DNA from: a virus
Reading direction: 5' to 3' (one strand)
Virus record (IMG/VR): IMGVR_UViG_3300036770_005137
Location: 1-63,273 of that record
Length of the DNA stretch: 63,273 nt
Each line of letters begins with the position of its first letter. Positions within the stretch are counted from its first letter, which is position 1. Below the pieces are notes generated by a model, which was given only the letters and a program-made list of their open reading frames with translations, searched no databases and had not been told where the DNA came from. Both the position numbers and the translations under genes were made by a program. Shown here in pieces: positions 2,930-30,798 of this stretch.

Positions 2930-3612
2930 ATGTAAAACTTGTCTCTTATAGTCAACCTACTGACGAATTTAAAAATAATAGTATTGAAGATGCACAAGAT
3001 CTCATTGCCTTCTGTGCTCGTGTCAGTAATCCTAGCAATCAATTTAACACAGAAACAAGCGAAAAGCTTATACGATACTTAATTAAAAACAAACACTGGA
3101 GTCCACTAGAGATGGTTTCAGCTTGTTTAGAAATTACTACTACACGAGATATTGCCAGACAAATCTTGCGACACCGGAGCTTCAGTTTCCAAGAGTTCAG
3201 TCAGCGTTATGCTGATCCAACAAAAGATATGAATTTTGTCTACCGTGAAGCAAGGATGCAAGATCCTAAGAATAGACAAAACAGTATCCCTATTGATATC
3301 ACCGATCCTGGTGATAAAGAGCTGGCAAAGTTTTGGCTAGAGAAACAACAGGCAGTGATAAGAGCATCAAGAGATGCCTACGAATGGGCTGTGACAAATG
3401 GTATTGCTAAAGAACAGGCTCGTGCAGTATTACCTGAAGGACTAATAGAAAGCCGCCTCTATATGAATGGAACATTACGCAGCTGGGTGCATTATATTGA
3501 ATTAAGAGAAGCCAATGGAACACAAGAAGAGCATAGATCAATTGCTATAGAATGTGCCAAAGCGATAGCGGCAATTTTTCCTCTTACAAAAGACTTTCTA
3601 ACTGATAGATAG
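2926..3612 (+). CDS. thyX: Flavin-dependent thymidylate synthase ThyX
   Basis: ThyX makes dTMP from dUMP using FAD, NADPH and methylene-tetrahydrofolate. The signature RHR-x7-S is present at residues 82-92 (RHRSFSFQEFS) and runs on into QRY, as in the family. The length of 228 residues is normal. Other family hallmarks are the early ARVSNP segment and the ESRLYMNGTLRSWVHYI stretch, which carries late active-site residues. It starts by ATGA overlap with the gene before. Phages use ThyX to supply thymidine for their own DNA. Its last 29 bases overlap, tail to tail, with the end of the HAD-family gene on the other strand. Confidence 0.95.
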   Translation: MNVKLVSYSQPTDEFKNNSIEDAQDLIAFCARVSNPSNQFNTETSEKLIRYLIKNKHWSPLEMVSACLEITTTRDIARQILRHRSFSFQEFSQRYADPTKDMNFVYREARMQDPKNRQNSIPIDITDPGDKELAKFWLEKQQAVIRASRDAYEWAVTNGIAKEQARAVLPEGLIESRLYMNGTLRSWVHYIELREANGTQEEHRSIAIECAKAIAAIFPLTKDFLTDR

Positions 3613-4066
3613 TTTCTTCTATGCTAGTGTGTAAAATTCCAATTCCACCTACTGATATCCAAGCATCTATGTTTGATTTTCTATCATCAACTAATATGTC
3701 TCCCGGACTACAATGTTTCTGTTTATCAGAACTGTAAGGCCCAAACCATACAGGTATACTAGGAAAATATTTATTAGCCCAATTTAACTTATCGTAAAAC
3801 GCCCATGGAAAATCATTTTTATGAGGAACAGCAGTAAGAAAACATAATTCTTTTTTTTGAATATTTGAGATTTTTTCCGCTGTATATACAATTTTTTTAG
3901 ATCCAATGCAGGGTTCTAAATGTTTATAAATTCTTTGATTTTCTAAAATTATCTTCCATTCGTAATCTGAATAAACATTATCTTGTTTTTTATATCCTAA
4001 TATCTGATATACTTTTTTTGAAAAATCAGCAACAACATCATCCATATCAAGAAAAAGCTTATTCAT
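3584..4066 (-). CDS. HAD-family 5'(3')-deoxyribonucleotidase-like phosphatase
   Basis: The 160-residue protein opens with FLDMDDVVADF, the HAD motif I with the two catalytic aspartates (DMDD). It has LTAVP near the middle as motif II and ILVDDRKSNIDAW near the end as motif IV. This is the layout of small NT5C-type deoxyribonucleotidases and their phage relatives. It could recycle nucleotides beside thyX, or it could remove a phosphate from a sugar intermediate, because it is the last gene of the biosynthetic chain and overlaps the aldolase-like gene by 8 bases. The sequence does not decide between them. Confidence 0.8.
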   Translation of the reverse strand: MNKLFLDMDDVVADFSKKVYQILGYKKQDNVYSDYEWKIILENQRIYKHLEPCIGSKKIVYTAEKISNIQKKELCFLTAVPHKNDFPWAFYDKLNWANKYFPSIPVWFGPYSSDKQKHCSPGDILVDDRKSNIDAWISVGGIGILHTSIEETIYQLESLL

Positions 4067-5063
4067 GAAATTGCCTATATAAGTTTATCATATTAAAAAC
4101 ATGTTTTCTTAAATTATTATAAAATAATTCTTTCTCATTAGAGTCAATAAAAATACTCAAATACTCTTTCGTATTGAAAAAATAATGACCGCTCACTAAT
4201 ACAGCAGCTAATTTATCATTCTTCTTTTCATCTGAAATCCATCGATTAAACTTTTTACCATCGTAAACAATATTAGCAAAATCAATCCAGTTTTTAGTTT
4301 TTCCAAATTGATCAAATAATAGCTTAGTTTGAATTGTTCCTAGCTGCGGAGCAATATTAATAGCATCAATTCCGGCAGTTTTTCTCATCTTTAAATCTAG
4401 GCTGTCTAAATAGTCTCCATTATGTTCTTTAAATAGAAATCCATAATTATGTATTTTATTACTTAAAAATAAATTATAATTTATATCAAAATTTCCGATT
4501 TGCCTATCACGTATCGAACTACCAGTTTGAGTTACAAAAAAACTAATATTTTTAAATTTTTTACAAAACTCTAATTGAGTATCTATTCTTTCTATAGAAT
4601 CAGTAAGATTTAATCCTGTATTTTCTTCACTACCAAACTCTATAAGTATATTAGGATTTAAATTTACAGCATAATCTATTAACTCAGTTGCTAAATCAAA
4701 TGCATTATTCTGAACCCTACTAACATCAACATGAATAAGTTTAAAACCTTGCTGTATATCAGTTAATATTGTTTGCTTACATTTGTTAATTATTTGTGAA
4801 TAATTTAATTCTATATCAGAATCTTTAAAATAAGGACCGCAATGATCCCTACACAACAATATATTATTTGATCTAGAAGCTAATCTAGATAAAGTTTCTG
4901 TAGAACACACATAAGAACTTTCAAAATCAACTTGGTTCCTACTAGCAATTATCATAAACTTGTAATCGTAAACTAGAGAATATTCTACTAATAGATTTAT
5001 AATATCTAAGCTCATAGGCCCGAATCCGAGCTTAAATTTTCCTAAGTTTGGATATTCTTTCAT
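4059..5063 (-). CDS. GatZ/KbaZ-like tagatose-bisphosphate aldolase family protein
   Basis: The 334-residue product resembles the GatZ/KbaZ family of TIM-barrel proteins, subunits that support class II tagatose-1,6-bisphosphate aldolases. Matching positions are LCRDHCGPYFKD (family G-D-H-x-G-P-N), LIHVDVSR (family I-H-L-D-M-S) and IEFGSEENTG (family G-T-E-x-P-x-P-G). No separate catalytic GatY/KbaY partner is seen in the window, so this may be a stand-alone enzyme acting on another sugar. It overlaps the AroE-like gene by 32 bases, the longest overlap in the chain. The assignment rests on motif reading and is moderate. Confidence 0.58.
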   Translation of the reverse strand: MKEYPNLGKFKLGFGPMSLDIINLLVEYSLVYDYKFMIIASRNQVDFESSYVCSTETLSRLASRSNNILLCRDHCGPYFKDSDIELNYSQIINKCKQTILTDIQQGFKLIHVDVSRVQNNAFDLATELIDYAVNLNPNILIEFGSEENTGLNLTDSIERIDTQLEFCKKFKNISFFVTQTGSSIRDRQIGNFDINYNLFLSNKIHNYGFLFKEHNGDYLDSLDLKMRKTAGIDAINIAPQLGTIQTKLLFDQFGKTKNWIDFANIVYDGKKFNRWISDEKKNDKLAAVLVSGHYFFNTKEYLSIFIDSNEKELFYNNLRKHVFNMINLYRQFHE

Positions 5064-5760
5064 AGTCTTCTAAATTAATCTGCAAACCAGTATACAAAAA
5101 AAACTGTTTTAAAAATTGAAATCTGTATAGCTCTTGCCCGCTAATATATTCTACATTATTTTCACTAGCTTGAGACTCTAGATCTCCTGGAGTTATTGCT
5201 AAATCAACTATTAATTTTGTTTTGCTATTAATATTCTTAAGAGGGCTTTCTTTAGATGATGTTCCTAATGATGTGCAATTTATAACTACCTCCGAGTCAT
5301 CATGTCGTTCATTCCAATTACCCAGACTCGGGCTATAATTATTAATATTGTATTCAAATTTTGATAAAAACTTTTTAAACATCTTACCGATAGAACCGTT
5401 TCCTAATATTGTTATCAATGGCGATTTGATTCGTGTTGCAACATATTTAACAAATTCTAAATCAGTATTATATCCAACTAATTTTTTATCTTTACATAAT
5501 ACAGTGTTACATAGATTAAATTCTAATACATCAGAATCAAAGTCATCTAAAAAATCAATAATAGGAAATTTAAAAGGCATTGATACACTTATACCACTTA
5601 CATCTTCATTTTTTAATTCTAAAATTTTTTGACTAAAATTATCTGGCTGAACAGACAAAGGAAAATACTCTGCATCTATATTATAAAGTTTAAAAAAACT
5701 ATTATAAAAATAAAATCCTTGTTTTCCGGGATGTTGACTTAAGCTCACAAACTTTTTCAT
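5032..5760 (-). CDS. Shikimate dehydrogenase-like (AroE-type) oxidoreductase
   Basis: AroE-type enzymes interconvert a keto and a hydroxyl group on a cyclohexene ring with NADP(H). The 242-residue length is close to the family's. Expected residues appear in order: SVSMPFK with Lys64 at the catalytic lysine, CNTVL with Asn85, GYNTD with Asp100 at the catalytic aspartate, a Rossmann glycine motif GNGSIG at 120-125, and NCTSLGTS later. The end retains the YRFQFLKQFFLYTG helix typical of AroE. With the paired catalytic residues present it is likely active. A phage copy beside aldolase-, kinase- and cupin-like genes suggests a cyclitol- or sugar-making role rather than aromatic amino acid synthesis. 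Confidence 0.72.
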   Translation of the reverse strand: MKKFVSLSQHPGKQGFYFYNSFFKLYNIDAEYFPLSVQPDNFSQKILELKNEDVSGISVSMPFKFPIIDFLDDFDSDVLEFNLCNTVLCKDKKLVGYNTDLEFVKYVATRIKSPLITILGNGSIGKMFKKFLSKFEYNINNYSPSLGNWNERHDDSEVVINCTSLGTSSKESPLKNINSKTKLIVDLAITPGDLESQASENNVEYISGQELYRFQFLKQFFLYTGLQINLEDYERISKLRKI

Positions 5761-6404
5761 TTTGATAAATTTATAATTAAATCAACTTTGTCAACCCAAT
5801 ATCCAGTCGTAGGAAATAAAAAGGCTATCTTACATTGTTTATAAGGAGGAACAATAAGAAACTTATTATGCCTCTCGAACATAACTGCTTTGACTATTTC
5901 TAAATTATTAGTATCAAAATCATCAATAATAATAAGATTCTCTTTATTATCCGAAAACTTATCTAATTCAATCTTAACAGATTCATATCTATGATCACCA
6001 TCTAAAAATACTAAATCATAGTCTATTACTGATTCAAAATCAGAACTAGATGCTTGAACCAAATTTATATTCTCGATTATACTACTTCCTAAACATTCTA
6101 TAAATGCAAATTTGAAATCATTAAACTCTTTACTAACCTTATTAAGAACCTCTAACAGATCAGGATCTCCTTCGTAAGTTCCTAAGGGCATAGGAATAGG
6201 ATCTCCCCATAGATCTACCACAGTAAGAGAAACCGATTTGCTTTTTCCAATATATAAAGCATGAGTAGATCTTCCGTATGCAGAGCCTATTTCAAGTATG
6301 TTTCCATTAGATGGAACAAGACTAGCAATATTAGCTAATATTTTAAGCTCTTTTTCAAAAGTCATTCCTGGGATATCAAATCTATAATTAAAACTTTTCA
6401 TCAT
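5757..6404 (-). CDS. Class I SAM-dependent methyltransferase (Methyltransf_24 type)
   Basis: The 215-residue protein has SAM-binding motif I as ILEIGSAYGRST near residue 40 and an acidic motif VVDLWGDP after it. The segment VFLDGDHRYESVKIELD near residue 133 is typical of Methyltransf_24, a group that includes sugar O-methyltransferases and cephalosporin-hydroxylase-like proteins. The DGDH acidic set can bind a metal in some members. The gene overlaps its neighbours by 17 and 4 bases. The likely role is O-methylation of the group built by this cluster. The true start may be the second ATG. Confidence 0.75.
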   Translation of the reverse strand: MMKSFNYRFDIPGMTFEKELKILANIASLVPSNGNILEIGSAYGRSTHALYIGKSKSVSLTVVDLWGDPIPMPLGTYEGDPDLLEVLNKVSKEFNDFKFAFIECLGSSIIENINLVQASSSDFESVIDYDLVFLDGDHRYESVKIELDKFSDNKENLIIIDDFDTNNLEIVKAVMFERHNKFLIVPPYKQCKIAFLFPTTGYWVDKVDLIINLSK

Positions 6405-7923
6405 CTATTTCTTTAAATAATTTAATACCTAGATACCACAAAAACAAATCAAATGGTCTATGATGTAATGGGCTCATATTCCAAAAAATTATAGGAACTA
6501 GTAATTTTACCTTTTTATAATTCCACCCTTTATTTAAAATAAAATTTTTCAATTCTTCAACAAAATTGTCTGCATTTTCAATAGAAGGAACTATTAATCT
6601 AACACTGCCGTTATCTACAGAATATTCAAATTCATTCTCTTTTATTTTACTATAATTTATTATTAATCCACCCATTAACTTAGCAAGATCATAATAAATA
6701 TCTCCACATTCAACAGATCCTCCAAAATCAGGTCTCCAATCTATTAACTTAAATTCTCCATTATCAGAAATTATAGAATTATCAAAATGTAAGTCGCCGT
6801 GAACATGCCCGGGCAGCACTTCATTAACAAGCAAATTCCAATCAATTTTATCAAAATAATAATTCCAATCTTCTACTTCAATGTCATTGATTGTTTTGAC
6901 TAAAGGCAACTGTTGATATTTACTAAGAAACTTGTGAACACGAGATATTGTCTTATCTTTATAAAATTTTTCGGCTGTATGGGTTATATGAAATGATTTT
7001 CTAATCCATAAATTTTCATCAATCCAATTTAAGTATCTTTTAAATATTTCTAAATTATAATTTTTATATATTACAGACCCTGGTAAATAATCGTAAAACA
7101 AATAATTACCACAAATTCTTACATTAGAAGGATAAACTTTCGTGTTATCTATATATCGACTATATTTCTTTTCTGCTATCCCTAATTCTTGCCACCATTT
7201 AATTACAAAATTATTAGTAAAATAAGTTATTTCTTCTTCTTTAGAAAAGACATATTTTTGACTTTTTACATAAGCATCTTTATAAGTTTCGTAATTTCCA
7301 AAATCTATCCATGACTCTAAATTAGCTACTTTTTCACCTAAAGTGATCGGGGATATTATTTCATTGCTACTAGAATTTTTTAAATGCTCTATAAAAACTT
7401 TCCAATCATTTATAAACATTAACCCTGTAAAGGCTACATAAGATTCACTAGTTTGCTGTTTAAATTTTATTTTTTTAATTCTATTATCATCTATATCAAA
7501 CATCGTATACTGATTAGACAATTTAATATCAACTTTTTTAGTAAAATATGTATTTTCATCATATTTTTTGTCTATAAATTCATCTTCAAAATAAGTGTCA
7601 CAAGGAACATACCAAAAAGGTTTATCAATTTTATCTATACATTGTAAGAAAGAATATCCTGGACCAGACTTCTCACTAGTATAATCATCTACATCTACAA
7701 ATTCAATGTTTCGATCTTGATAAACGTGTGAACAAAAAGATCTAACTTGATCACTAAGATGACCTGTTAAAATAATAAATTTGGAATTTTTAGAAAAGCT
7801 TTCAATAATATGCGATATTACAGGTTTATTTTTATAAGGCAGTAATGATTTATTCAGGTTTTCTGTCAACTCTCTCATCCTACTGCCTAATCCAGCAGTA
7901 GAAATTATTACGAGGTCATTCAT
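6388..7923 (-). CDS. Fused sugar-phosphate nucleotidyltransferase and APH/choline-kinase-like kinase
   Basis: The first half of this 511-residue protein is a nucleotidyltransferase: GLGSRM at 11-16, then a conserved lysine in NKSLLPYKNKPVISHI, and an acidic PCDTYFED metal site near residue 108. The second half is an APH/choline-kinase fold with HGDLHFDN around residue 374 (catalytic loop) and LIDWRPDF near 393 (metal-binding Asp). Together they could phosphorylate a small alcohol or sugar and then activate it with CTP or another NTP, as LicA plus LicC do for choline. Overlaps with the cupin gene (8 bases) and the methyltransferase gene place it in one pathway. The substrate is unknown. Confidence 0.78.
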   Translation of the reverse strand: MNDLVIISTAGLGSRMRELTENLNKSLLPYKNKPVISHIIESFSKNSKFIILTGHLSDQVRSFCSHVYQDRNIEFVDVDDYTSEKSGPGYSFLQCIDKIDKPFWYVPCDTYFEDEFIDKKYDENTYFTKKVDIKLSNQYTMFDIDDNRIKKIKFKQQTSESYVAFTGLMFINDWKVFIEHLKNSSSNEIISPITLGEKVANLESWIDFGNYETYKDAYVKSQKYVFSKEEEITYFTNNFVIKWWQELGIAEKKYSRYIDNTKVYPSNVRICGNYLFYDYLPGSVIYKNYNLEIFKRYLNWIDENLWIRKSFHITHTAEKFYKDKTISRVHKFLSKYQQLPLVKTINDIEVEDWNYYFDKIDWNLLVNEVLPGHVHGDLHFDNSIISDNGEFKLIDWRPDFGGSVECGDIYYDLAKLMGGLIINYSKIKENEFEYSVDNGSVRLIVPSIENADNFVEELKNFILNKGWNYKKVKLLVPIIFWNMSPLHHRPFDLFLWYLGIKLFKEIDDEKF

Positions 7924-8359
7924 GTTCTTTAGCTATCTTGCCATGCCCTCTGCCTTGATCATCTTGAATTCTTATAACATCATCTAATTCGGTGGAGCTT
8001 GTTTCTAGAAAAGTAAGATCAGTTAATGCTATAACACGATGAACATACTCAGGTTCAACATCAATATAGACTCCAGGTTTCAAATCAATTTTTTCAAGAG
8101 AATTTTCATAAATTAAGATGTCATGGTCGCTTAACCCATCGTCTAGAAACTTATCAATATCAAACTTTTCTTTACTTTTTAAAAAAAATCCAAGACCGTC
8201 TAAAACATAATTTGTTTCATATTTTTTACGATGAACTTGCAAGCTAGTTCTATTTCCTTTTTTAAAAAAAATTTTTTTAACTGCATACGGAGATTGGACA
8301 CCATCGGCAATCCATATCTCATAGCCCCAAGGTTTATTAACTTTTTTTACATTATACAT
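7916..8359 (-). CDS. Cupin, mannose-6-phosphate isomerase type II-like
   Basis: The 147-residue protein is a single cupin barrel. It shows NKPWGYEIW near the start, SLQVHRKKYET (first metal-binding His set) and PGVYIDVEPEYVHRVIAL (second set), as in the C-terminal domain of bifunctional mannose-1-phosphate guanylyltransferase/isomerases. The end (SSTELDDVIRIQDDQGR) also fits that group. The nucleotidyltransferase domain missing here is encoded by the next gene, so the pair may correspond to a split activation module. Sugar-phosphate isomerase or epimerase activity is likely. Confidence 0.75.
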   Translation of the reverse strand: MYNVKKVNKPWGYEIWIADGVQSPYAVKKIFFKKGNRTSLQVHRKKYETNYVLDGLGFFLKSKEKFDIDKFLDDGLSDHDILIYENSLEKIDLKPGVYIDVEPEYVHRVIALTDLTFLETSSTELDDVIRIQDDQGRGHGKIAKEHE

Positions 8360-8861
8360 AAACTTTTAATCCTATTCTTAACGCATACCATATTGCTATA
8401 TTAAATTCATTACCATTTAACATATACTGATCTCTATCTAATGATGTCTCTAAGGCCGATCTATCAATCTTAAATAAGCTCGACAACCAGTTAATCAAAG
8501 CACTTACATGACCGAAAACCCAACTGTGATCTTTGTCAAGATTATTATGATCAAAAATTAGAAAATCATTAGTATAATCATCATGCAAAAATTTACCTAT
8601 TTTTTCAACACCGTCCGAAGAATAACTACCCCAGACTATCATAGCATGATGAAATTTTTGATCAGCAGAATAATATTCCGACTCTAAAAGATACTTCTCT
8701 AGATTAAACCCTACATTAGAAAATTCTTTAAATAAGGTATCCGGACCATCAATCACTGGATTATCTACTACAATTACTTTCTTATTAATGGTAGATTCTA
8801 TAATACTTACGAAATCATCAAGTTTTTGTATTTGATTATCAACTGGAATTACTAGTATCAT
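8352..8861 (-). CDS. Unknown protein, partner of the glycosyltransferase-like gene (copy A)
   Basis: I do not recognise a family. The 169-residue product resembles the product of 12841-13356: both have a D-x-SW-x-FG segment about two thirds along, then a tryptophan-rich helix, and a WY-x2-RIGL-x-V ending. The first strand (MILVIPVDN) and a hydrophobic second strand suggest an alpha/beta fold. Each copy begins inside the stop of an R-P-D motif protein (ATGA overlap here), so the two proteins probably work as a pair. Confidence 0.65.
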   Translation of the reverse strand: MILVIPVDNQIQKLDDFVSIIESTINKKVIVVDNPVIDGPDTLFKEFSNVGFNLEKYLLESEYYSADQKFHHAMIVWGSYSSDGVEKIGKFLHDDYTNDFLIFDHNNLDKDHSWVFGHVSALINWLSSLFKIDRSALETSLDRDQYMLNGNEFNIAIWYALRIGLKVYV

Positions 8862-9832
8862 TCTGCTTCTCTATATCGTTCTGCCCAAACTGGATCAAAC
8901 AAATAATCTTTAGTATCAATATTTAATTCCCAGCAAGATTTAATTCTATACTTCCAAGCAGTTTCCATATCATTATGCGAAAAATAATGACACTCACCTG
9001 GCCAATGATCCCATGGTTCTTTTAAATCAAACGAATCGAAATTACTAACAAAATTTAAATAATTTGACTTATTATAAACTAAACTTGTTGGCCTAACAAC
9101 ATCAGCTAGGAATCCCATTTTATTTTCATTATGAAACCATCTATCATCTACAGTTATTAAGTGCTTTCTGAAATATAGGCTTAAACCAGAATGCATATCA
9201 GTCCCCAATCTTAAAAGCATTTGATTTAACTTGTCTTTTTTAAAATCAAATTCTAAGTTCCAATTACAAAACACATCAGAAGAAAATAATCCCCCAATCA
9301 AACGTAAGTGATTAGCAGAAGGGCTAGCATAATTATATCTTAATTCGTCATAATCACCTCTCATTTGGAAGGAAAAATTTTTATAATCAGAAAAAGAATT
9401 TTCTATTTCTTTAGTAGAAGAATTATATAAGTAAATACAATCCGGTCTAGCAAAAAATACACGGTGATACCTTACTCCGGTTTTAAACTCGTGAATTCTT
9501 TTTTGAAACCCGGCAAGGTAATTTAAATACATTAACCCTTTAAAATAAGAATTAGTCCATCTAGATCTGTCCCAATGTGCAGAATTATAATCAGGTATAG
9601 TTGAATTCAAAATTTGAGCATTATAGATAATATTCTGATTTTTAGATTTTAAGAATGAGTAAATCTCATCACAAGAAGTGGTCTTACTCTCGTGAATACA
9701 AACAAACCAATCAGCGTCTTCAAAAACATCTTGAATAAATTTGACTATATATTCTTTACAAAAATGCCAAGTTCTCGGAGCACCGGTCAAAATAACTGCT
9801 GTCTTTAAATTATATTGATTAGCTTTTATCAT
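8858..9832 (-). CDS. Glycosyltransferase-like protein with R-P-D motif (copy A)
   Basis: The 324-residue protein starts KTAVILTGAPRTW and carries FFARPD at about 126-131. The product of 13353-14246 has the same two motifs in the same spacing. The R-P-D motif after a run of hydrophobic residues is common in GT-A-like phage and capsule proteins where an aspartate binds the nucleotide-sugar metal. The DWF-x-C-x-HES segment near 41-49 is also shared. Function as a glycosyltransferase is inferred. It overlaps the methyltransferase gene by 4 bases and the unknown partner gene by 4. Confidence 0.65.
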   Translation of the reverse strand: MIKANQYNLKTAVILTGAPRTWHFCKEYIVKFIQDVFEDADWFVCIHESKTTSCDEIYSFLKSKNQNIIYNAQILNSTIPDYNSAHWDRSRWTNSYFKGLMYLNYLAGFQKRIHEFKTGVRYHRVFFARPDCIYLYNSSTKEIENSFSDYKNFSFQMRGDYDELRYNYASPSANHLRLIGGLFSSDVFCNWNLEFDFKKDKLNQMLLRLGTDMHSGLSLYFRKHLITVDDRWFHNENKMGFLADVVRPTSLVYNKSNYLNFVSNFDSFDLKEPWDHWPGECHYFSHNDMETAWKYRIKSCWELNIDTKDYLFDPVWAERYREAE

Positions 9833-10944
9833 ATAAATCTCGTACTAGGATTAATATTTTTTATAATATCTTCTTTGATTTCATTTGTAAAATAACCAGC
9901 ATTAATAATAACTATAGGACTTTCCTTATTACGCAGAATTTCAGGAGATTCGACGTAGAAAGAAGTTCCATATAATCTTTGTTTCTGTTTTTTAACATTA
10001 TTATCAAGCACAAATAATAAATTACCAGTATTTAACCCTAGTTTAATTAAAAATTGCGAAAAAACATGTGCTCCAAAAATATAAAAATCTTGCTCATCTT
10101 GCAATTTGAAATTTAAAACTTTTATATAATCTACTAAATGCTGAAAATATTCTTCGATTAATTGTTTATTTTTATAATAAAGACCTTTATCTAATTCAAG
10201 ATAATGATCACAAACTTGTTTTTTAAAAGCATAAAATATACTATGACATTCTTGATAGTATACACATTCGATTAATTTAAAATTTGATCTATTAAACAAG
10301 TATTCAATATATTCTTCAGTAATTAAAAATGTATGTTCAAAGTTCAGAACATTAGTATAATATTTTTTTATCATTGATTTTAAATTTGGAATTGAGAAAA
10401 TTACTCTTGAACCTATAGCTAACTTTTTATTTAAAATGGACAAAAAACTATTAATATCTAAAACATGCTCTAAAAAATGACTATGAACCACTGTATCTAT
10501 ACTGTAAGATTCGATATCAATTTCCTCATTAAAAAAACTGCTGATGCCTTCACTACTTGAAATATTAGGATCAACCATTAACCATGAAATTTCTTTATTA
10601 AAAAATGATTTTAATAATCCATGCCCAGATCCTAACTCTAAAACTGACTTAGGATTATACTTTTTAATAAAGTCAGAAAAACTAACATGGTGATCGTGCC
10701 ATGCTTTTCCAATTTCCCCAGAATAATGACTGTGTTTATAAACAATTTTAGGCGGAAAGATTGGATCTATTTGCACTAGCCCTGAAGATTTGCTAACAAA
10801 AAAGTTAAGATCATTAGCTAAATCCAACGTTATACTTTCTAAAGTCGTTCCCATAAAGCAAGGAAAATCCTTTATACAATAAAGTAGTTCTAAATCAGAA
10901 TTATTAGTTATTAAATCTCTATTTTTATATATTATATCAATCAT
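9829..10944 (-). CDS. Sugar C-methyltransferase-like SAM methyltransferase
   Basis: The 371-residue product follows the three-part order of TylC3/NovU-type sugar C-methyltransferases. A short N-terminal domain (without a full zinc-cysteine set) is followed by a SAM domain with VLELGSGHGLL around residue 98 and HSHFLEHV near 155, and a C-terminal Rossmann-like domain with FYIFGAHVFSQFLI near 285. Such enzymes add a methyl group to a ring carbon of an NDP-sugar. The loss of the zinc cysteines seen in many members makes the exact reaction uncertain. The 44-base gap upstream (10945-10988) is the largest break in the cluster. Confidence 0.7.
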   Translation of the reverse strand: MIDIIYKNRDLITNNSDLELLYCIKDFPCFMGTTLESITLDLANDLNFFVSKSSGLVQIDPIFPPKIVYKHSHYSGEIGKAWHDHHVSFSDFIKKYNPKSVLELGSGHGLLKSFFNKEISWLMVDPNISSSEGISSFFNEEIDIESYSIDTVVHSHFLEHVLDINSFLSILNKKLAIGSRVIFSIPNLKSMIKKYYTNVLNFEHTFLITEEYIEYLFNRSNFKLIECVYYQECHSIFYAFKKQVCDHYLELDKGLYYKNKQLIEEYFQHLVDYIKVLNFKLQDEQDFYIFGAHVFSQFLIKLGLNTGNLLFVLDNNVKKQKQRLYGTSFYVESPEILRNKESPIVIINAGYFTNEIKEDIIKNINPSTRFI

Positions 10945-10988
10945 GTTTAAAAAAACTTACACATAGTCTAATCATTCTCCATAGCTTA

Positions 10989-14246: not shown

Positions 14247-14247
14247 A

Positions 14248-23485: not shown

Positions 23486-24648
23486 TTAAATTGTTCCGTA
23501 AAAGCATCATATTTAGCCCCACAAGTCTTGGCACAAATAGATAATTTTCCATCTGCACAACTTGGTTTATCCCAACTTTCTGGAATATATTTTTGAAAAA
23601 ACAAACCATTTACAATAGTTTCTAGGTCAACGTTTATAGCATTAAGGTTTTCTTTTCCTGCTTGGTCAATTAAATTCCAAATTTGAGTGGACCTCGGGGT
23701 ATGATACCAAACATACATCTGACCTGCTGTCCAACAACAAGGTTGAACTATGCCTTCTGCACTAATATATAGACTTTTTTCCTCTGCGACTTTACACTTA
23801 ATTGTAGCTTCATCCCAAACTTTTTCAATTGGTTTTTTCTTTGCAGGATCTTTGTGAAAAAACTGCGGATACATTTCAATATCTTTTGCTTTGCTAGGAA
23901 TAATTTTTACAGATTCTTCACCTTTGGCAAATTTGCTTATTTCATCTAATACGCTATTACGGTATTTTGGATTTTTAGGCGCAGATAAAAGAGCAGTAGC
24001 AACACCTTTACGATTTCCTGCCTGATGCATTTCTTTAGTAACACCGCTTACATTACTAAAAAATCGAGCACTTTTTTTATACTGGAATTTCTCAAAACCC
24101 ATTTTCTTACTTAAAGCTTCTGCTGCTTCAACTTGGTGTTCATTATGGGCAAATACTATATAATCCCAACGAGCTCTGCCTCCTGCATCAATAAAAGCTT
24201 GAGCATTTTCCATTATCTTTGGCCATATAGTATTTTGCCTATACAGATGATTTGTATCTTCTAAACCATCTACACTGAAAATAACGTATCCTTTTCTACC
24301 TATAACTCGTGCTAAATTAGCCCACCATTCAGGTTTTTTGGCACTGCCATTTGTATGCATACTTAGATTAATCTGACTATTGTTTTCTCTAAAATATGAA
24401 AATACTTCTAATGTATCTTTGGCAGCTATTGGATCTCCGTAATTGCCGCACATATACAATCTATCCAGTTGTTTAATAAAATCTATAGAAAAAATTCTTT
24501 TCACATCTGTGATTGACAGCTCTGTTTGAGGAAGCTGAGGATTATCTTCTCCCCCATTTATATTACGAGCACACATTGGACAGGCAGCGTTACATTTATC
24601 TGTAATTTCTAAATGAACCGTCTTGATTTCATTGTATTTGTATAACAT
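23482..24648 (-). CDS. Radical SAM/SPASM-like protein
   Basis: The 388-residue protein has CNAACPMC at residues 19-26 near its start, the usual place, and MCGNYGDP in the GGE-like position. Later come IKCKVAE and GIVQPCCW, the pattern of a C-terminal SPASM domain, and CADGKLSICAKTCG at the end. It is thus built in the usual order, unlike its neighbours. Its ATG uses the last base of the stop of the 74-residue gene (TAATG), so the two are coupled. The substrate is unknown. Confidence 0.88.
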   Translation of the reverse strand: MLYKYNEIKTVHLEITDKCNAACPMCARNINGGEDNPQLPQTELSITDVKRIFSIDFIKQLDRLYMCGNYGDPIAAKDTLEVFSYFRENNSQINLSMHTNGSAKKPEWWANLARVIGRKGYVIFSVDGLEDTNHLYRQNTIWPKIMENAQAFIDAGGRARWDYIVFAHNEHQVEAAEALSKKMGFEKFQYKKSARFFSNVSGVTKEMHQAGNRKGVATALLSAPKNPKYRNSVLDEISKFAKGEESVKIIPSKAKDIEMYPQFFHKDPAKKKPIEKVWDEATIKCKVAEEKSLYISAEGIVQPCCWTAGQMYVWYHTPRSTQIWNLIDQAGKENLNAINVDLETIVNGLFFQKYIPESWDKPSCADGKLSICAKTCGAKYDAFTEQFK

Positions 24649-24872
24649 TATTCCATTACTAACTTAATATCTTTTCCTGGGCCAACCTTACTTGGTAAGT
24701 CTCCGTATTTTTCTATATAATCTTTTATAACAACCTTATACCAATTTTGACTATTATGATAGGCTTGTGAATTAAATTTATAGATATTATTATTCGTTGC
24801 TTCTATTGTAGATAATGCACGGGCTGCTTCTTTTTGCAAATCTCTTAATTCTAATTTATCAATGTCAATCAT
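24648..24872 (-). CDS. Small hypothetical protein, 74 residues
   Basis: The product begins with an acidic helix (LELRDLQKEAARALSTIEA), then an asparagine- and tyrosine-rich middle (NNNIYKFNSQAYHNSQNWY) and an end with GDLPSKVGPGK. It lies directly upstream of a radical-SAM/SPASM gene with 1-base overlap and directly after a methyltransferase-fold gene with 4-base overlap. It could be an accessory subunit, or a substrate peptide of the next enzyme; nothing in it proves either. No cysteine is present, so sactipeptide-type thioethers can be excluded. Confidence 0.62.
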   Translation of the reverse strand: MIDIDKLELRDLQKEAARALSTIEATNNNIYKFNSQAYHNSQNWYKVVIKDYIEKYGDLPSKVGPGKDIKLVME

Positions 24873-26632
24873 GGTCTACCAATAAGCATTACACGCTTAT
24901 ATCCTTTAAGCTGAAGCTCGCCCTCAAATAAAATTTCTTTCATAGGAAATTTTTTCTTTAAATGATCAATACTATACACACAGTTTACATGTTCTTCAAT
25001 ATCAAACAGATTATTACTTTGCATAGCAACAATTGGGTTCGATTCTAATTCCTTAAACCTAATCTGATTAAACCATTCTTCAGTCATATGCTCTGCACTT
25101 GTATTAATAATTAAGTCAGGTAAAAATTTTTCGAGATATGCTGTTCCTTCTTTAAAATTTTCAATATTTAACTCATAACCATTTTTATGTAAAGTTAAGC
25201 TATTAATATCTGCACAGACACTCTTGACCTTATACTCTTCTAAGTTACTTAAATTAAAAATATAGTCACTTACATTACAAGAAAAACGATCAATATCCAC
25301 TATACGCATTTTATTGTAAGTTAATAAGTTATTATAAATTGATTTAATTTGCCCGAACCATCCTGCTAATACAAGAACATTTGCAAAATGAGAATTTATT
25401 TTTGTTAGTTCTTCGACTAACCAAATCTTACTTTTTATTTGACTTCTACTAAACGCATCATTTATAAAACTTTGATCATAATTGCTTTTTATATATACAT
25501 TTATTCCTCTAAAAATTTTATCACTTAAAAACTTCCTATCAAGCATGGCAAGATTTGAACTTATAACTTCTTTTTCGAAATCATTAGCTTCTACAGCCCT
25601 ATGAAGTGCCATAGACAAACTAGCCATAGAATCGTGATCTTCTTTAGTAACTTTTCCTAAATAAAGCAATAAAGCTCTAATACTGATTAATCTGTTTTCT
25701 TTTAAACATCCATGTATTAAATCTTTTACCTCTGTCGTTAAATCTTGCTCTACCTTTAAAATCATTTGCAACATTATTTGATACACAGAACTAAAATCTT
25801 TACACTTTTTAATTGCAAAAGCGAACCAAGATAAGTCCGCATTTTTTTCAGACTTACCTATAAATTCTAATATAAATGAATAAAAATCCTTTTCTATTTT
25901 AATGACAGAAAATATTAGATCTTTTTGTTCCTGTGTAATCTTTTCACTACTACCTACATAATGCAATAATGTCTTGTATACTTGAAAAGATCCATCTGAC
26001 TTTACTTGTGCAAATATTAGGTCTTTTTGTTCTTGAGTGATTTTTTCACTTTTTCCAATATACTGTAGCAGTGATTTAAAGAAGCTTTCTTTATCATTGC
26101 CTTTAAGTTGTGAAAATATAAGGTCTTTTTGTTCTTGACTAATAATTCCTTCATGTCCAATAAACTGTAAAACAAACTTAAAAGCATTTTCATTTATTTT
26201 AACCAATTTTGAAAAATGAAAAATCAAATCTTTAAAGTAAGAACTGCCTTCTGTCTCGTCGCTACAAAACTTTAACACTTTGGATTTAAACTGGTTAATA
26301 TCGTCAGCCTTCAACAATGCAAAAATTAAAGTTGTTAAATTTTGATTCTTTACTGATGTTTTTGCTAGATAATGTAGCAATACTGTTCTTAGCTGATCTT
26401 GCGTTTCTGCTCGTATGGAACCATGAGTTAAGTCAGCTAAATTAACATTATTCTCTGCTAATTCAGTAGTGAAATCTTGAAGGAAAGATACAGTTACAGA
26501 TTCTTTGGCATTTTCAGAATCAATTGTTCTGCTAAGAGAATGTATGTTCTCGGCCAATCTGTCAAATTTTAAAAATCTCAAATACTCTTCTATACCTAAG
26601 AAGAATTCAGAACTTGTTGTGCTTTCAGCCAT
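24869..26632 (-). CDS. Helical-repeat protein fused to a methyltransferase-like domain
   Basis: The N-terminal half is a repeat array: three near-identical units of 34, 34 and 32 residues, each opening I-S/T-QEQKDLIF and ending near IGKSEK (about residues 164-264 from the ATG used here), flanked by weaker units. The last 210 residues look like a Rossmann methyltransferase: VLVLAGWFGQIKS, then RIVDIDRFS and an IINTSAEHM segment. ATG 26632 follows GAGGA at good spacing. A longer frame begins with TTG at 26644 and is not preferred. The repeats may hold a partner or substrate while the C-terminal domain acts. Confidence 0.72.
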   Translation of the reverse strand: MAESTTSSEFFLGIEEYLRFLKFDRLAENIHSLSRTIDSENAKESVTVSFLQDFTTELAENNVNLADLTHGSIRAETQDQLRTVLLHYLAKTSVKNQNLTTLIFALLKADDINQFKSKVLKFCSDETEGSSYFKDLIFHFSKLVKINENAFKFVLQFIGHEGIISQEQKDLIFSQLKGNDKESFFKSLLQYIGKSEKITQEQKDLIFAQVKSDGSFQVYKTLLHYVGSSEKITQEQKDLIFSVIKIEKDFYSFILEFIGKSEKNADLSWFAFAIKKCKDFSSVYQIMLQMILKVEQDLTTEVKDLIHGCLKENRLISIRALLLYLGKVTKEDHDSMASLSMALHRAVEANDFEKEVISSNLAMLDRKFLSDKIFRGINVYIKSNYDQSFINDAFSRSQIKSKIWLVEELTKINSHFANVLVLAGWFGQIKSIYNNLLTYNKMRIVDIDRFSCNVSDYIFNLSNLEEYKVKSVCADINSLTLHKNGYELNIENFKEGTAYLEKFLPDLIINTSAEHMTEEWFNQIRFKELESNPIVAMQSNNLFDIEEHVNCVYSIDHLKKKFPMKEILFEGELQLKGYKRVMLIGRP

Positions 26633-27302
26633 ATGTTTCCTCAAACATTTTTTTTAACCATTCAAAATCATTAATTTTCTTTAGATTATCAATATTATTT
26701 CTATTCTTTAATCCGTATTTTTTACCTTCTAATGCACCATTTATACAATACTCTCCATGCAAACGATCTTTTCCTAAATTGCACCATGCATTTAGCCTCT
26801 CATTAGTTTCGTCGTTCTTTTGTCTATCTATTACTTTACTTGCTAATTTACAGCATTCTCTAAAAGAACTTTTCCACGTATTAAACGGATCAGTATTAAA
26901 TGATGTAATATTACTAACTTCAAAAATTGGTTTAAACTTTTGACTTATGCTTGTAGTCATATCGGGTTTAGACAAATCCATGTTTATTGTCATTGATCTT
27001 GGCAGTAACTTCACTCCACCATTTCCATAAACTAAATCATTTACAGGATTTTGACTACGCCATACATATACTGTATCTCGTATAAAAGTTCTATAATCAA
27101 AATTAAATTCCTCAAGAATTTTGGCATCACCGTCTACTACCCAAAACATATCAGTATGGCATAACTTTGCTGCTTGTATGTGTGCTTGATGTATGCCTTT
27201 CACTCCATGAACTCTTATAGCAGTAGGAAATCTATTTTTTAAATCATTCCAATTTTCATCTGCGTTAATTTCTTGATAACTTATGAACACAATATCAAAC
27301 AT
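26625..27302 (-). CDS. Glycosyltransferase-like protein (GT-A, DGD motif)
   Basis: This 225-residue protein is a shorter paralogue of the next gene upstream. Shared parts are the opening D-x-FISY-x-E, the DLK-x2-FP-x-A-x-RV-x-GVKG segment, and a VDGD motif (WVVDGDAKIL, near 53-60) that would bind the metal and nucleotide-sugar. The NDLVYGNGGVKLLP segment is also common to both. I infer transfer of a sugar to a cluster acceptor. It overlaps its neighbours by 8 bases on each side. Confidence 0.7.
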   Translation of the reverse strand: MFDIVFISYQEINADENWNDLKNRFPTAIRVHGVKGIHQAHIQAAKLCHTDMFWVVDGDAKILEEFNFDYRTFIRDTVYVWRSQNPVNDLVYGNGGVKLLPRSMTINMDLSKPDMTTSISQKFKPIFEVSNITSFNTDPFNTWKSSFRECCKLASKVIDRQKNDETNERLNAWCNLGKDRLHGEYCINGALEGKKYGLKNRNNIDNLKKINDFEWLKKMFEETYG

Positions 27303-28224
27303 TTTCTACAACCCAATCATTAGACATTCTAGGAGGATTAGTATATAATGCCTTAAAAAATTTACTTTGGTCCGAGTCCATTATTCCTGGGCCTGTTAGT
27401 ATACCAAGCTTTTGTTTTAACATTTCCCCTAGTCTTTTTATTTCACCTTCGAGACTAAAATTTGTTTCGTTACTAACATTTTCAAAAATTTCATTAAGTG
27501 TATCAAATGTTCTAACATTTAAATAATCCCAATCAGTGAGCATGGTCATATAGCAACCTAATCTTGCACCGTAAATTGCCCATAACCCATTTTCAACATC
27601 ACTGCCTACATTCATCCAAGTAACTAATCTATGATAGTTTTTCCAGTGCACCTGCTTATCAAATGGTTTATCTAATGTTGGTTTAATCCCTTCCATTAGA
27701 CACATTTTAACACCTTCTCTAAAACCAGCCCTCCAAGCTTGTCTAGAGCTGGCGTTATTATGAACCCAACTCATCCATTGCTTCATCTGTAGGTATTTTA
27801 TTTCCCAACAAAAGTCAACTTGAGTTTTTTCATTTTCTGCCTCTGCATTTTCGTGCGTCCTCATATCTAAAACTAATTGTGTAGGCCAATTTTTGATACT
27901 GCCATTTCCGTATATTAAACCATTGATAACATTACAAGCAGGAAAAGATAGAACACAATTTGATAATTCTGCATGATCATGAAATTCTATAACTTGATCC
28001 ATGAGTGCCGAATTAACAATATTATCGCCATCAATAATCGTAACACGTTCTGTTTCAGCTAATCTAGCACAGGCTTTGTGTGCGCTGTCACTACCTTTTA
28101 CACCGTCGACACGTTTAGCCCAAGGAAACTTCTTTTTTAAATCAGCATAGTTACGTTCTTTATTTGGTTCGTCGTAACTTAAAAAAATCAAATCACAATC
28201 TACTAGCTTAATTCTTTGTGTCAT
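27295..28224 (-). CDS. Glycosyltransferase-like protein (GT-A, DGD motif)
   Basis: The 309-residue protein begins with LVDCDLIFLSYDEPN, has FPWAKRVDGVKGSDSAH and TIIDGDNIV near residues 62-70, and NGLIYGNGSIKNWP later. It is a longer version of the 26625-27302 protein with an added C-terminal region of about 80 residues. The DGD triplet is the likely metal site. Relatives are annotated in marine T4-like phages as family-2-like glycosyltransferases, but I could not check this. It starts by a 17-base overlap with the preceding gene. Confidence 0.7.
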   Translation of the reverse strand: MTQRIKLVDCDLIFLSYDEPNKERNYADLKKKFPWAKRVDGVKGSDSAHKACARLAETERVTIIDGDNIVNSALMDQVIEFHDHAELSNCVLSFPACNVINGLIYGNGSIKNWPTQLVLDMRTHENAEAENEKTQVDFCWEIKYLQMKQWMSWVHNNASSRQAWRAGFREGVKMCLMEGIKPTLDKPFDKQVHWKNYHRLVTWMNVGSDVENGLWAIYGARLGCYMTMLTDWDYLNVRTFDTLNEIFENVSNETNFSLEGEIKRLGEMLKQKLGILTGPGIMDSDQSKFFKALYTNPPRMSNDWVVENV

Positions 28225-28765
28225 ATATTATTCCATAGCTATCAAATTCTTTAACAGTAACTATAACATCAGTATTTTTATCAAAATTATACTTTACCTT
28301 TTTTCCAGATTTAAGATTATCTAAAGTTAATTCTATAGACTTTTTTAATATGTTCAGATTAGAACTATCTGTTACAAAAAATTTATAAATTCTCTTATCA
28401 TTAACTATGAAACTAGATTCAAAGTTATTCAACTTAAAAGTTAGTGATCCTTTTGACACCGTGATTAATAAATTTACCGAATCACTGTTAGAAACTTTAT
28501 TAATTACACACAGGTCGTAAAAGTTTTTAACAGTTACAGACTTTTGCTCAAGTTGTATTCTGTCAGATATTTTAACTTTAAAATTCTTAATCTCTTTCTT
28601 ACTTTCAACAAAATCAACTACAAATTTTTCAGAAACTTCAATATAGTTTCCTTCTGATAACTTTTCATTGGTCAATGATAAAATATCACCTTGCTCATTA
28701 TAATAGAGATAAAAATTATTAGGGCGTAAAGTTAATGGTGGTAATTCAATAATTCTATATGCCAT
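28208..28765 (-). CDS. Unknown protein, 185 residues
   Basis: I do not recognise a family. The protein is rich in alternating hydrophobic strands (for example NFYLYYNEQGDILSL, VNLLITVSKGSLTFKL) and poor in helices, so it is probably a beta-sandwich. The front third reads like a small strand-rich cap. It lies between two glycosyltransferase pairs with overlaps of 11 and 17 bases, which suggests that its product is needed with them, perhaps as acceptor or binding module. No catalytic motif is seen. Confidence 0.6.
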   Translation of the reverse strand: MAYRIIELPPLTLRPNNFYLYYNEQGDILSLTNEKLSEGNYIEVSEKFVVDFVESKKEIKNFKVKISDRIQLEQKSVTVKNFYDLCVINKVSNSDSVNLLITVSKGSLTFKLNNFESSFIVNDKRIYKFFVTDSSNLNILKKSIELTLDNLKSGKKVKYNFDKNTDVIVTVKEFDSYGIIYDTKN

Positions 28766-29582
28766 TTGCTTTCTCTAACTTTTTAACTATATCGCTAGTT
28801 AAAAAACTATCTTCTACGTAATGAAATAACCCAGTTTGCTTAAAATTACCCACTATCAATTCTAAATCGTCATTTAAGTAGGGCAATACATATGGTTGCC
28901 AAGTCTCTAAATTGTTAATACCCCATGACTGAATACCTGGTTTCATATGAGTAAAAGATAATATTTGATTATTAGTTAAACCTAGCATTTGTGAAACTAT
29001 CGATGACGATACATCCATGCTACAAAATTTTTGTGTATTCTTAGGTGTATATAGTTCGTAGAAGTCTTTATAATTTTTCATTATTACTTCTAGCCATTTA
29101 AAAAACTCAAACGTATTTTTATTTTTTTTAAAATAAAATAATCCGCAATAAACATCAGGTAATAAATTTGCAGCAAAAACTTTCCTATAAGGATTATTTT
29201 GGCATGTAACTAGATTTCCTTTATAGTCATAGACTCTATTAGTTAATTGTAAATCTTCTTTTTCTAGGTAATACCATAAATGATCATTGCTATCTAACAA
29301 TAACATATCAGAATCATAAACTAAATTTTCTTTAAACGGACTTACATAGACCATTTTCCATCTGTTTTCAATTTTCCATTCCGACTTTTCTGCCATATCT
29401 CCCCATGGAAATTTAACAATATGATCAAATACATTAATATAATCTACAGGAACAGCATCGTTGGTTATTAGGCAAACTTCATTGATTTTATTGAACTTCT
29501 TAATACTTAAGGCCAAGGCATAAGCTTGTCGGATATAATCTATATCGGAATTCTGTGCAAATATCAAATGTCCTTTACTCAC
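28755..29582 (-). CDS. Glycosyltransferase-like protein (GT8-type, DSD motif)
   Basis: The 275-residue protein begins KGHLIFAQNSDIDYI and has LVYDSDMLLL near residue 91, a D-x-D motif of the GT-A type. The later segment DVYCGLFYFKKNK and the C-terminal GLFHYVEDS fit family-8-like transferases. It is a tandem paralogue of the gene upstream (29575-30390), which begins KGVLLFAQNGEFKY. Its likely donor is a nucleotide-sugar; the acceptor is unknown. Confidence 0.7.
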   Translation of the reverse strand: MSKGHLIFAQNSDIDYIRQAYALALSIKKFNKINEVCLITNDAVPVDYINVFDHIVKFPWGDMAEKSEWKIENRWKMVYVSPFKENLVYDSDMLLLDSNDHLWYYLEKEDLQLTNRVYDYKGNLVTCQNNPYRKVFAANLLPDVYCGLFYFKKNKNTFEFFKWLEVIMKNYKDFYELYTPKNTQKFCSMDVSSSIVSQMLGLTNNQILSFTHMKPGIQSWGINNLETWQPYVLPYLNDDLELIVGNFKQTGLFHYVEDSFLTSDIVKKLEKANGI

Positions 29583-30390
29583 TATAACACCTCAAAACAC
29601 TAAACTTATTCATAACATGGACATCAGTATTCTTGACTGAAACCGGTTGTAATGCAGAATCATTGTTATTTGCTACTAAAAAAGTAAATCTCTGTCCACT
29701 ATCTTTAATTAAAAAGTCAGTATCAATTGTAAAAAATTTCTTACCTGGAATAAAACCAAAATGTTTTGAAACTCTATGCTGGAAAAACAAATGTATAGCA
29801 ATACTAAAAGCAAAATCATTCCTGTATTTCATCTCTTTAATTTGATACAAATAACAGTAGTAAAACCAATTGTCTCGAATATACTTAATTAAGGTAAAAA
29901 ACATCTGTGTTGTTTGAGTTTTCTTGAAATAAAAAACAGTTGCCCAATAAAATTTAATAGAGAAAGGATTTATATAGTCAAACTCAGTTAAGTTACGTTT
30001 TGAAGATAAATCAAAATGTTCATTAAATATCAAAAAATCTTTATCTGATTCAAAACAACAATTTAACCAATTGCTATTTAAAATATAATCAACATCTATT
30101 ACTAGTGTTTCATCATAAGGGCTCAAATCATAGGCATCTGCTCTAGTAAAATTAAGCCATTTTACTTTTGTAAAATTATCTTCCCCGTCTTTAAGCATTC
30201 TGTATTGTATTTTTTCATCAGAAACATTGATAATTTGATCGAATAATCCTTTATCGTTTTCATAATACTCATTAACAACTATAGAAACAGGAAGATTTAA
30301 AAAATCCGCTACTTTTTTAGCTGCAATTTCTGCTAAATCAGTATATTTAAACTCGCCATTTTGGGCAAATAACAAAACACCTTTAGTCAT
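29575..30390 (-). CDS. Glycosyltransferase-like protein (GT8-type, DVD motif)
   Basis: This 271-residue protein shares the KG-x-L-x-FAQN start and a D-x-D motif (LVIDVDYIL, near 97) with its downstream neighbour. The YWATVFYFKK segment parallels YCGLFYFKK in that neighbour. It ends HVMNKFSVLRCYSE rather than with the GLFHY sequence, so the acceptor side has diverged. It is the second gene of the chain, overlapping the first by 8 bases. Confidence 0.68.
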   Translation of the reverse strand: MTKGVLLFAQNGEFKYTDLAEIAAKKVADFLNLPVSIVVNEYYENDKGLFDQIINVSDEKIQYRMLKDGEDNFTKVKWLNFTRADAYDLSPYDETLVIDVDYILNSNWLNCCFESDKDFLIFNEHFDLSSKRNLTEFDYINPFSIKFYWATVFYFKKTQTTQMFFTLIKYIRDNWFYYCYLYQIKEMKYRNDFAFSIAIHLFFQHRVSKHFGFIPGKKFFTIDTDFLIKDSGQRFTFLVANNNDSALQPVSVKNTDVHVMNKFSVLRCYSE

Positions 30391-30730
30391 CTAACATGCT
30401 TTCTATTTTTTTATTAGATGTAATCTTTTTATAACCATAGAAAAATAAATTTGTCGCTTCTTTATAATGACTCATTAAACTGTCAAAAAAATCATTTATA
30501 TTTTCTATTAGAACCGGTGTATTATTATCATCTACTAAAACATAAGATTCAATATTATTGGATTTTAAAACATTTACAAAAGACAGACGTTGCTCAGTAG
30601 CAGCAAATGATCCCCCGTTATAGTAATAGATCAACGATTGAGAAAATTCTTCATCTAAAATACGCTTTTGATTATTAAATGTGGCCATCAAACTGGCCAT
30701 TTCGAATGCCTTTTTAACTTTAGGATCCAT
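30383..30730 (-). CDS. Hypothetical protein, first gene of the biosynthetic chain
   Basis: The 115-residue product is mostly helical in its first 35 residues, then has strands (LVDDNNTPVLIEN) and a helical, lysine-rich end. No family is recognised. It is the promoter-proximal gene: a sigma-70-type promoter (30756-30784) and a late CATAAATA box (30791-30798) lie just upstream, and CGGAG precedes the ATG. It overlaps the glycosyltransferase gene by 8 bases. A role as a regulator or adaptor of the cluster is possible but unproven. Confidence 0.62.
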   Translation of the reverse strand: MDPKVKKAFEMASLMATFNNQKRILDEEFSQSLIYYYNGGSFAATEQRLSFVNVLKSNNIESYVLVDDNNTPVLIENINDFFDSLMSHYKEATNLFFYGYKKITSNKKIESMLDD

Positions 30731-30790: not shown

Positions 30791-30798
30791 TATTTATG
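30791..30798 (-). promoter_or_regulatory. T4-type late promoter CATAAATA
   Basis: CATAAATA on the minus strand overlaps the stop codon of the 315-residue virion gene and lies 61 bases before the first gene of the cluster. It matches the NATAAATA late box of marine T4-like phages, read by gp55-type sigma. With the sigma-70 promoter next to it, the cluster may be transcribed both early and late. Confidence 0.5.

Follow-up and report, generated by a model that had tools for sequence, protein, structure and literature searches.

The window analysed here is the 63,273-nt stretch of DNA at positions 1 to 63,273 of the IMG/VR virus record IMGVR_UViG_3300036770_005137. Judged by its genes, it is a genome fragment of a T4-like phage with a contractile tail: it encodes gp53, gp5, gp25, gp6, tail fibres, and other virion proteins, and also genes resembling gp55 and gp47. 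Genes are arranged in the order gp53-gp5-gp25-gp6-giant gene-fibres, and the fibre genes are followed by a cluster of 32 minus-strand genes (3584-30730) that is rich in radical S-adenosylmethionine (radical-SAM) enzymes and is the subject of this study. Many uncultured aquatic phages carry, beside their fibre genes, the same kind of arrangement: a conserved glycosyltransferase set, a 74-aa protein, and a row of swappable radical-SAM genes.

The cluster and its radical-SAM proteins

A first-pass annotation of the window had reported 32 co-directional genes, and this number is correct when a 74-aa open reading frame (ORF), not named separately there, is counted. From 30794 downward, 29 of the 32 junctions overlap; the three exceptions are gaps of +63, +1, and +44 bp. 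The single cluster it described is one overlapping operon, but the nine genes at its far end are private to the window, as shown below.

Seven of the proteins (rS1 to rS7) were predicted to have radical-SAM cores, and the prediction is borne out. Six of the seven match PF04055 above the Pfam cut-off, with rS6 just under it (29.3 vs 29.5 bits in the protein scan). The CX3CX2C motif is intact in all seven, and none of the genes is broken by stop codons. The 170-bit cut-off of NF033640 (N_Twi_rSAM; twitch domain-containing radical SAM, a family name without function) is exceeded by rS2, rS4, rS5, and rS6, while rS1, rS3, and rS7 score only 40-50 bits and are non-members. The SPASM domain reported as separate does have its own gene, but it amounts to the C-terminal half of rS3: in L017, L020, L021, L023, and L025 the two exist as one gene of ~380-390 aa. 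A viperin-like role in antiviral defence was rejected, since NF038283 requires at least 180 bits, the best score is 50 bits (rS3), and PADLOC matches are confined to the radical-SAM core.

Constant core and exchangeable cassettes

The relatives compared are viral contigs of one collection. Counts are lower bounds, and contigs below the dereplication threshold are counted separately. Searching with rS4 yields 26 loci (62-83% identical) whose mapped gene order is the same as in the window; in most of them, a gene of 73-75 aa is found between the methyltransferase gene and rS7. Scanning with the 74-aa gene yields 85 related stretches, from which 80 loci (56-89% identical) were kept and, with near-identical contigs merged, placed in 57 groups. 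In dereplicated groups with enough flanking sequence, the glycosyltransferase GT26625 is upstream of the 74-aa gene in 49 of 52 and the methyltransferase MT24869 also in 49 of 52; rS7 comes next in 49 of 50, and rS6 is present in 34 of 41. The rS6 profile finds at least 594 related stretches in viral contigs, some of which may be paralogues. The best 80 of these loci are 71-81% identical over almost the whole protein, and rS7 is upstream of rS6 in 57 of their 59 dereplicated groups. An rS6 match above 900 bits occurs exactly once in each of 11 large records, with weaker paralogues besides. The mean column identity of rS6 is 81%. GT26625, the methyltransferase, the 74-aa protein, rS7, and rS6 are thus the constant core of the cluster, and the remaining radical-SAM genes are exchangeable cassettes.

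Exchange between close relatives can be seen in the rS7-rS6 interval, which ranges from 8 to 7,644 bp among the best 80 rS6 loci. L072 and L075 share 96.8% identity across 12.7 kb, but their intervals are 1.3 kb and 6.8 kb. One radical-SAM gene of 1.1 kb distinguishes L061 from L068 (97.7%). The interval is 9 bp in L033 and 2.7 kb in L034 (86.5%). In 50 loci of ~17 kb, 418 radical-SAM-like genes form 79 clusters at 35% identity, and the number of PF04055 matches per related viral record lies between 5 and 22. The window has no gene in its rS7-rS6 slot. The slot of the nearest relative, L001, contains a radical-SAM gene, c5 (6142-7188), which is split into frames of 249 and 118 aa. Broken in L001 and gone in the window, c5 is an apparent case of cassette decay.

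The first-pass annotation had proposed a common pathway, which would be doubtful if the genes were scattered in relatives or the radical-SAM genes degraded. Neither is found, because relatives keep the glycosyltransferase, methyltransferase, 74-aa, rS7, and rS6 genes together and in order, and fusions also occur: GT27295, GT26625, and the methyltransferase are a single fused ORF in L052, and GT26625-methyltransferase fusions exist in other relatives. The proposal is supported for this conserved part but not for all 32 genes, as the radical-SAM set varies. One pathway of 32 genes is rejected on the position of rS1, which lies within 12 bp of ThyX in 11 of 15 relatives' contigs; in the window, the two are separated by 7.4 kb with nine genes (3584-10944). 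Among 107 loci compared, eight of these nine genes are found in none and MT24 in one, and the nucleotidyltransferase-kinase has no viral relative. GC content is 0.278 in this private block vs 0.333 in the radical-SAM core. The block is best read as a later addition, which may feed the same product as the core.

GT8858/h8352 (8352-9832) and GT13353/h12841 (12841-14246) are paralogous in both members (~25% each), and their sequences point to a duplicated two-gene unit. h12841 and GT13353 are found in no relative, and SGNHc is found weakly in seven loci.

The core and the radical-SAM genes are under purifying selection. When the window is compared with the relative closest to it, dN/dS, which is approximate because synonymous sites are near saturation, is 0.04-0.07 for the 74-aa protein (0.04), rS7, rS6, the PP-loop protein, rS4, rS3, rS2, and rS1, and is 0.10 for GT26625 and 0.19 for rS5. 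Chance association is excluded, because dN/dS is 0.04-0.19 for the radical-SAM genes and the gene order recurs across many contigs. In nine phages, the mean pairwise identity is 74% for rS6 vs 39% for gp6, and the two matrices are not correlated (Mantel r -0.01, p 0.49). Since rS6 identity is independent of gp6 identity, the module probably moves horizontally between phages, although very strong constraint could contribute.

Table 1. Genes of the cluster (32 minus-strand genes) and of the region directly ahead of it, by descending coordinate.
Feature	Position	Strand	Basis
Tail-fibre/virion genes ahead of the cluster, same orientation	32725..38278	-	PHROG matches (tail fibre, virion structural)
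Two tandem paralogues, 55% identical (BLASTP), directly upstream of the cluster	30794..32715	-	
115-aa protein without assigned function, first cluster gene, kept in relatives	30383..30730	-	
GT28755 and GT29575, two GT8 (glycogenin-like) glycosyltransferases	28755..30390	-	Profile vs PDB glycogenin
185-aa protein without assigned function, variable among relatives	28208..28765	-	
GT27295, paralogue of GT26625 (29%)	27295..28224	-	
GT26625, GT-A-fold glycosyltransferase, DGD motif, constant core gene	26625..27302	-	Predicted fold
MT24869, methyltransferase-like, constant core gene; conserved in the C-terminal ~240 aa, variable in the N-terminal part	24869..26644	-	
74-aa helical protein, constant core gene, overlaps rS7 start	24648..24872	-	
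rS7, radical SAM, Cys-rich C-terminal region, constant core gene	23482..24648	-	
rS6, radical SAM with N-terminal twitch, the cluster's most conserved enzyme	22079..23485	-	NF033640, 415 bits
rS5, N-twitch radical SAM, dispensable cassette, missing in L007-type relatives	20674..22089	-	NF033640, 188 bits
PP-loop ATPase-like protein, C-terminal CxxCxxC	19833..20681	-	Motif and weak PDB matches
rS4, N-twitch radical SAM	18530..19840	-	NF033640, 382 bits
rS3 and separate SPASM-like half (17359-17832)	17359..18533	-	Fused in some relatives
SGNHa, GDS motif only, without profile support; private or rare	16637..17374	-	
Short SDR-like protein, YxxxK motif, in 20 loci	16074..16643	-	Profile vs PDB SDR
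SGNHb, GDS motif only, without profile support	15344..16120	-	
rS2, N-twitch radical SAM, dispensable cassette	14248..15351	-	NF033640, 225 bits
Accessory genes SGNHc, h12841, GT13353	12158..14246	-	
rS1, radical SAM of the SPASM type, final core gene	10989..12161	-	
Private accessory block: NT5C, GatZ-like, AroE-like, MT24, nucleotidyltransferase-kinase, cupin, h8352, GT8858, MT23	3584..10944	-	

Companion enzymes, the 74-aa protein, and surrounding genes

The six glycosyltransferase-like proteins of the first-pass annotation are supported in four cases (GT28755, GT29575, GT26625, and GT27295); GT8858 and GT13353 have no profile support. GT28755 and GT29575 belong to GT8 (profile A9 vs PDB glycogenin-1, E 1.6e-5), and their catalysis is predicted from sequence. 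The AlphaFold2 model of GT26625 has a pLDDT of 92, and its top Foldseek matches are all GT-A enzymes (RmlT, WrtF, SunS, and ppGalNAcT; E 2e-5 to 1e-3). It has DGD at residues 57-59, and D59 is invariant. Two of the three methyltransferase-like proteins are recognised by Pfam. The third, MT24869, has no Pfam or PDB match and is 26% identical to a "putative methyltransferase" of Pelagibacter phage Mosig.

Among the other annotated proteins, Pfam supports the nucleotidyltransferase-kinase, the N-domain of the AroE-like protein, and NT5C in the private block. The SDR-like protein has a partial profile match (A8 vs PDB SDR, E 7e-4). The cupin and GatZ-like proteins are weak, with scores under the Pfam cut-offs, and the three SGNH assignments have no profile support, SGNHa and SGNHb showing a GDS motif only. 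The PP-loop ATPase is also a weak assignment, made from the SGGxDS motif and weak PP-loop matches in PDB; SGG.DS and C254/C257/C260 are invariant in its alignment (A3). A QueC/queuosine identity was rejected for this protein, because it has no Pfam or NCBIfam match despite the SGGxDS motif and the CxxCxxC tail. A carbamoyltransferase gene exists in 12 of 20 relatives' records, in 8 of these 12 within ~11 kb of rS6. In L081 it immediately precedes GT26625, and in L096 it is close to that gene.

The 74-aa protein has 12 invariant positions and a mean column identity of 72% (46 aligned sequences). Its model is all-helical without strands (pLDDT 93.3), with no fold match in PDB, and a PqqD/RRE identity (RRE, recognition element of ribosomally synthesized and post-translationally modified peptides, RiPPs) was rejected on these grounds. 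The protein has neither Cys nor a variable core segment. Its gene is never present in more than one copy in a locus and is mostly upstream of rS7, often overlapping it or a few bases away. In L015 and L100, it is beside rS1 and away from rS7. L011, a 59-kb contig, has the glycosyltransferase, methyltransferase, and rS7 genes, but no 74-aa gene was detected along its whole length. Predicted to be folded and conserved throughout, the protein does not look like a typical RiPP precursor; it is possibly an adaptor, carrier, or substrate.

In cellular genome contigs, the sole match to the 74-aa gene is L111 (NZGL01000008.1, G011:C3), a phage contig with gp6, gp5, gp25, gp53, gp55, and gp47. This contig (108 kb) comes from the gammaproteobacterial metagenome-assembled genome MED685 and represents a phage of the window's lineage; a second contig of MED685, C12, also has N_Twi radical-SAM genes. 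In the other genome that passes NF033640, a lone N_Twi radical-SAM gene (L113, G030:C49:163379-164581; 392 bits) lies among gammaproteobacterial chromosomal genes, with no phage core nearby. A cellular origin of the core was rejected on these two cases.

The majority of the window's best isolate matches are jumbo phages, and its gp6 is ~35% identical to those of Phosso, Atu_ph07, SCTP-2, and PA5oct. A cyanophage origin was rejected, a psbA-type gene being found in 0 of 15 related records. The tandem pair directly upstream of the cluster probably encodes duplicated virion proteins, as suggested by its position after the fibre genes alone. The giant gene after gp6 is an ORF of 4417 aa (38303-51556) with distant matches in G011:C3. 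In pelagimyophages, the slot after gp6 is the place of VrlC (PMC7029224). The pelagimyophage host-recognition cluster is bounded by VrlC and the neck protein gp14. In the window, the 4417-aa gene, with no established match to VrlC, occupies the VrlC/gp7 slot, and on its far side the cluster is bordered by ThyX/HNH, not gp14. The T4 late promoter word TATAAATA is strongly depleted, with one occurrence in the whole window vs ~16 expected from shuffles, and gives no support for T4 late promoters as evidence on the timing of the cluster. The window has no Rfam match.

Possible function and related islands

GT8, GT-A, SDR, and carbamoyltransferase enzymes commonly serve to build and tailor glycans. 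Because they accompany the radical-SAM proteins here (the carbamoyltransferase in relatives), a glycan-type decoration is favoured. A diversifiable decoration with a virion acceptor is favoured because the fibre genes lead into the operon through overlapping junctions and its place is the same in the distant G011:C3, where virion genes are 25-50% identical. Tentatively, we read the conserved part as an operon, linked to the tail fibres, for the synthesis and attachment of a variable glycan-type group, whose likeliest acceptor is a tail-fibre or other virion protein. The GT8 and GT-A enzymes would build and transfer the group. The constant pair rS7/rS6, with the 74-aa protein, would carry out a radical step that is obligatory. 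The chemistry of the group would be varied by the exchangeable cassettes, which are radical-SAM, SDR, PP-loop, and, in relatives, carbamoyltransferase genes. Once the group is attached to a tail-fibre or other virion protein, a cassette swap would alter what is displayed or bound by the virion. We infer the glycan nature of the group, the acceptor, the activity of each radical-SAM enzyme, and the role of the 74-aa protein from sequence and predicted structure.

Several observations weigh against this reading. Although the fold class of GT26625 is confident, its Foldseek TM-scores are low (0.29-0.44). The carbamoyltransferase is missing from the window and from 8 of 20 relatives' records. In G001, the cluster is ~110 kb from gp6 with no fibre homologue detected upstream, so that fibre linkage is not universal. 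The best-scoring families of the radical-SAM proteins are a mixture of peptide, cofactor, and nucleotide enzymes, none of the proteins has an assigned substrate or product, and radical-SAM enzymes that modify peptides commonly have SPASM/twitch domains.

We favour virion decoration over two other explanations. The first, which we consider rather unlikely, is that the operon alters the lipopolysaccharide or another surface glycan of the host during infection, blocking superinfection or masking receptors. GT8 genes and placement in the host-recognition island are the basis on which O-chain modification was proposed in pelagimyophages (PMC7029224), and GT8 is present in the window. However, no membrane protein, flippase, polymerase, or lipid-carrier transferase is seen in the cluster, and the operon is located with virion, not early, genes (a matter of position only). 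By simple hydropathy, the cluster proteins have no convincing membrane segment (maximum 1.82, in one protein), which fits the cytosolic pathway that is expected.

The second explanation, ranked after host-envelope modification and likewise doubtful, is that the radical-SAM array modifies protein or peptide, acting on the 74-aa protein or a virion protein in a RiPP-like or maturation process in which the 74-aa protein is substrate, carrier, or adaptor. In favour of this, the 74-aa gene has a single copy and strong conservation, and its translation is often coupled to that of rS7 (or it is adjacent to rS1, as in L015 and L100). The radical-SAM proteins have N-terminal twitch Cys motifs, and the best PDB profile match of rS6 is the peptide maturase SkfB, at a weak E of 0.004. 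However, the all-helical fold predicted for the 74-aa protein, without Cys, variable core segment, or PqqD/RRE-like strand content, weighs against this explanation, as does its constancy while the radical-SAM set varies. The hallmarks of radical-SAM RiPP systems (an RRE/PqqD-type domain, protease, or exporter) have no Pfam or NCBIfam match in the cluster.

An auxiliary role, in which the radical-SAM enzymes boost host or Fe-S-linked metabolism, was proposed for phages CP220/CPt10 (PMC2853527) and TARA_ERS488813_N000010 (PMC5332604). It is very improbable here: the N-twitch family is phage-enriched rather than a host enzyme, the NF033640 cut-off being passed in 2 of 185 gammaproteobacterial genomes (one through a phage contig), and cassette turnover and glycosyltransferase linkage are ill-suited to a housekeeping supplement. 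Least probable is hypermodification of phage DNA bases: phage glycosyltransferases and unusual nucleotide enzymes do occur in such systems and ThyX adjoins the cluster, but the cluster is linked to fibre rather than replication genes, and no base-modification marker enzyme is recognised in the window, a weak point as the window is a genome fragment.

The first-pass annotation stated that no described phage system has such a gene set. This is too strong, as radical-SAM-rich islands are known in CP220/CPt10 (PMC2853527), pelagimyophages (PMC7029224), and TARA_ERS488813_N000010 (PMC5332604). CP220 and CPt10 are Campylobacter phages, distantly T4-like, with 11 and 12 radical-SAM genes and an interchangeable ~10-kb module of five radical-SAM genes and an amidinotransferase (PMC2853527). 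Like the window, they are radical-SAM-rich, with a tail fibre gene and genes for NDP-sugar-transferase-like proteins in the neighbourhood. Unlike it, they lack the 74-aa protein; their radical-SAM proteins match those of the window at 24-28%, and three that were tested have no N_Twi_rSAM match at 1e-8. The host-recognition cluster of pelagimyophages (PMC7029224) is likewise a hypervariable island by the fibres with GT8 genes and radical-SAM cassettes, and the window's cluster shares its location among fibre genes downstream of baseplate genes. Mosig, besides its methyltransferase, has MoaA-like radical-SAM genes adjoining a carbamoyltransferase. TARA_ERS488813_N000010, compared by description, is T4-like and radical-SAM-rich as well; its 12 radical-SAM genes were read as Fe-S metabolism (PMC5332604). 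Vibrio phages K566 and K567 (255-kb records from seawater/oysters) have a tandem N_Twi_rSAM array, in which two K566 proteins exceed the NF033640 cut-off, but identity to the window's radical-SAM proteins is 21-25% and there is no 74-aa protein. The 74-aa protein is absent from all the Campylobacter, Vibrio, and Pelagibacter phage islands analysed. INPHARED isolates yield no match for either GT26625 or the 74-aa protein, and the radical-SAM proteins of the window that were tested match there at only 22-26%. In open-licence literature, no description of the rS7/74-aa/rS6 core or of the cassette layout was found. Radical-SAM and glycosyltransferase genes are enriched in Tasman Sea viromes (PMC7150976).

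Taken together, the cluster looks like a customisable kit for chemical decoration. If so, it would be a horizontally moving system of chemical diversification, made of oxygen-sensitive radical enzymes and common to many uncultured aquatic phages at the place where host range is set. It would provide a function for the large orphan radical-SAM subfamily NF033640 and a new source of enzyme chemistry, given the 79 clusters found in only 50 loci. The radical-SAM islands noted repeatedly since 2010 would become testable as one phenomenon. It is possible, though we think it unlikely, that the system is combinatorial and phage-owned, with a constant rS7/74-aa/rS6 core that accepts swappable radical-SAM cassettes rewriting the chemistry of the virion decoration, and that the 74-aa protein serves it as a carrier or adaptor of a new fold. 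In that case, it would be the biochemical counterpart of sequence-based tail-fibre diversification.

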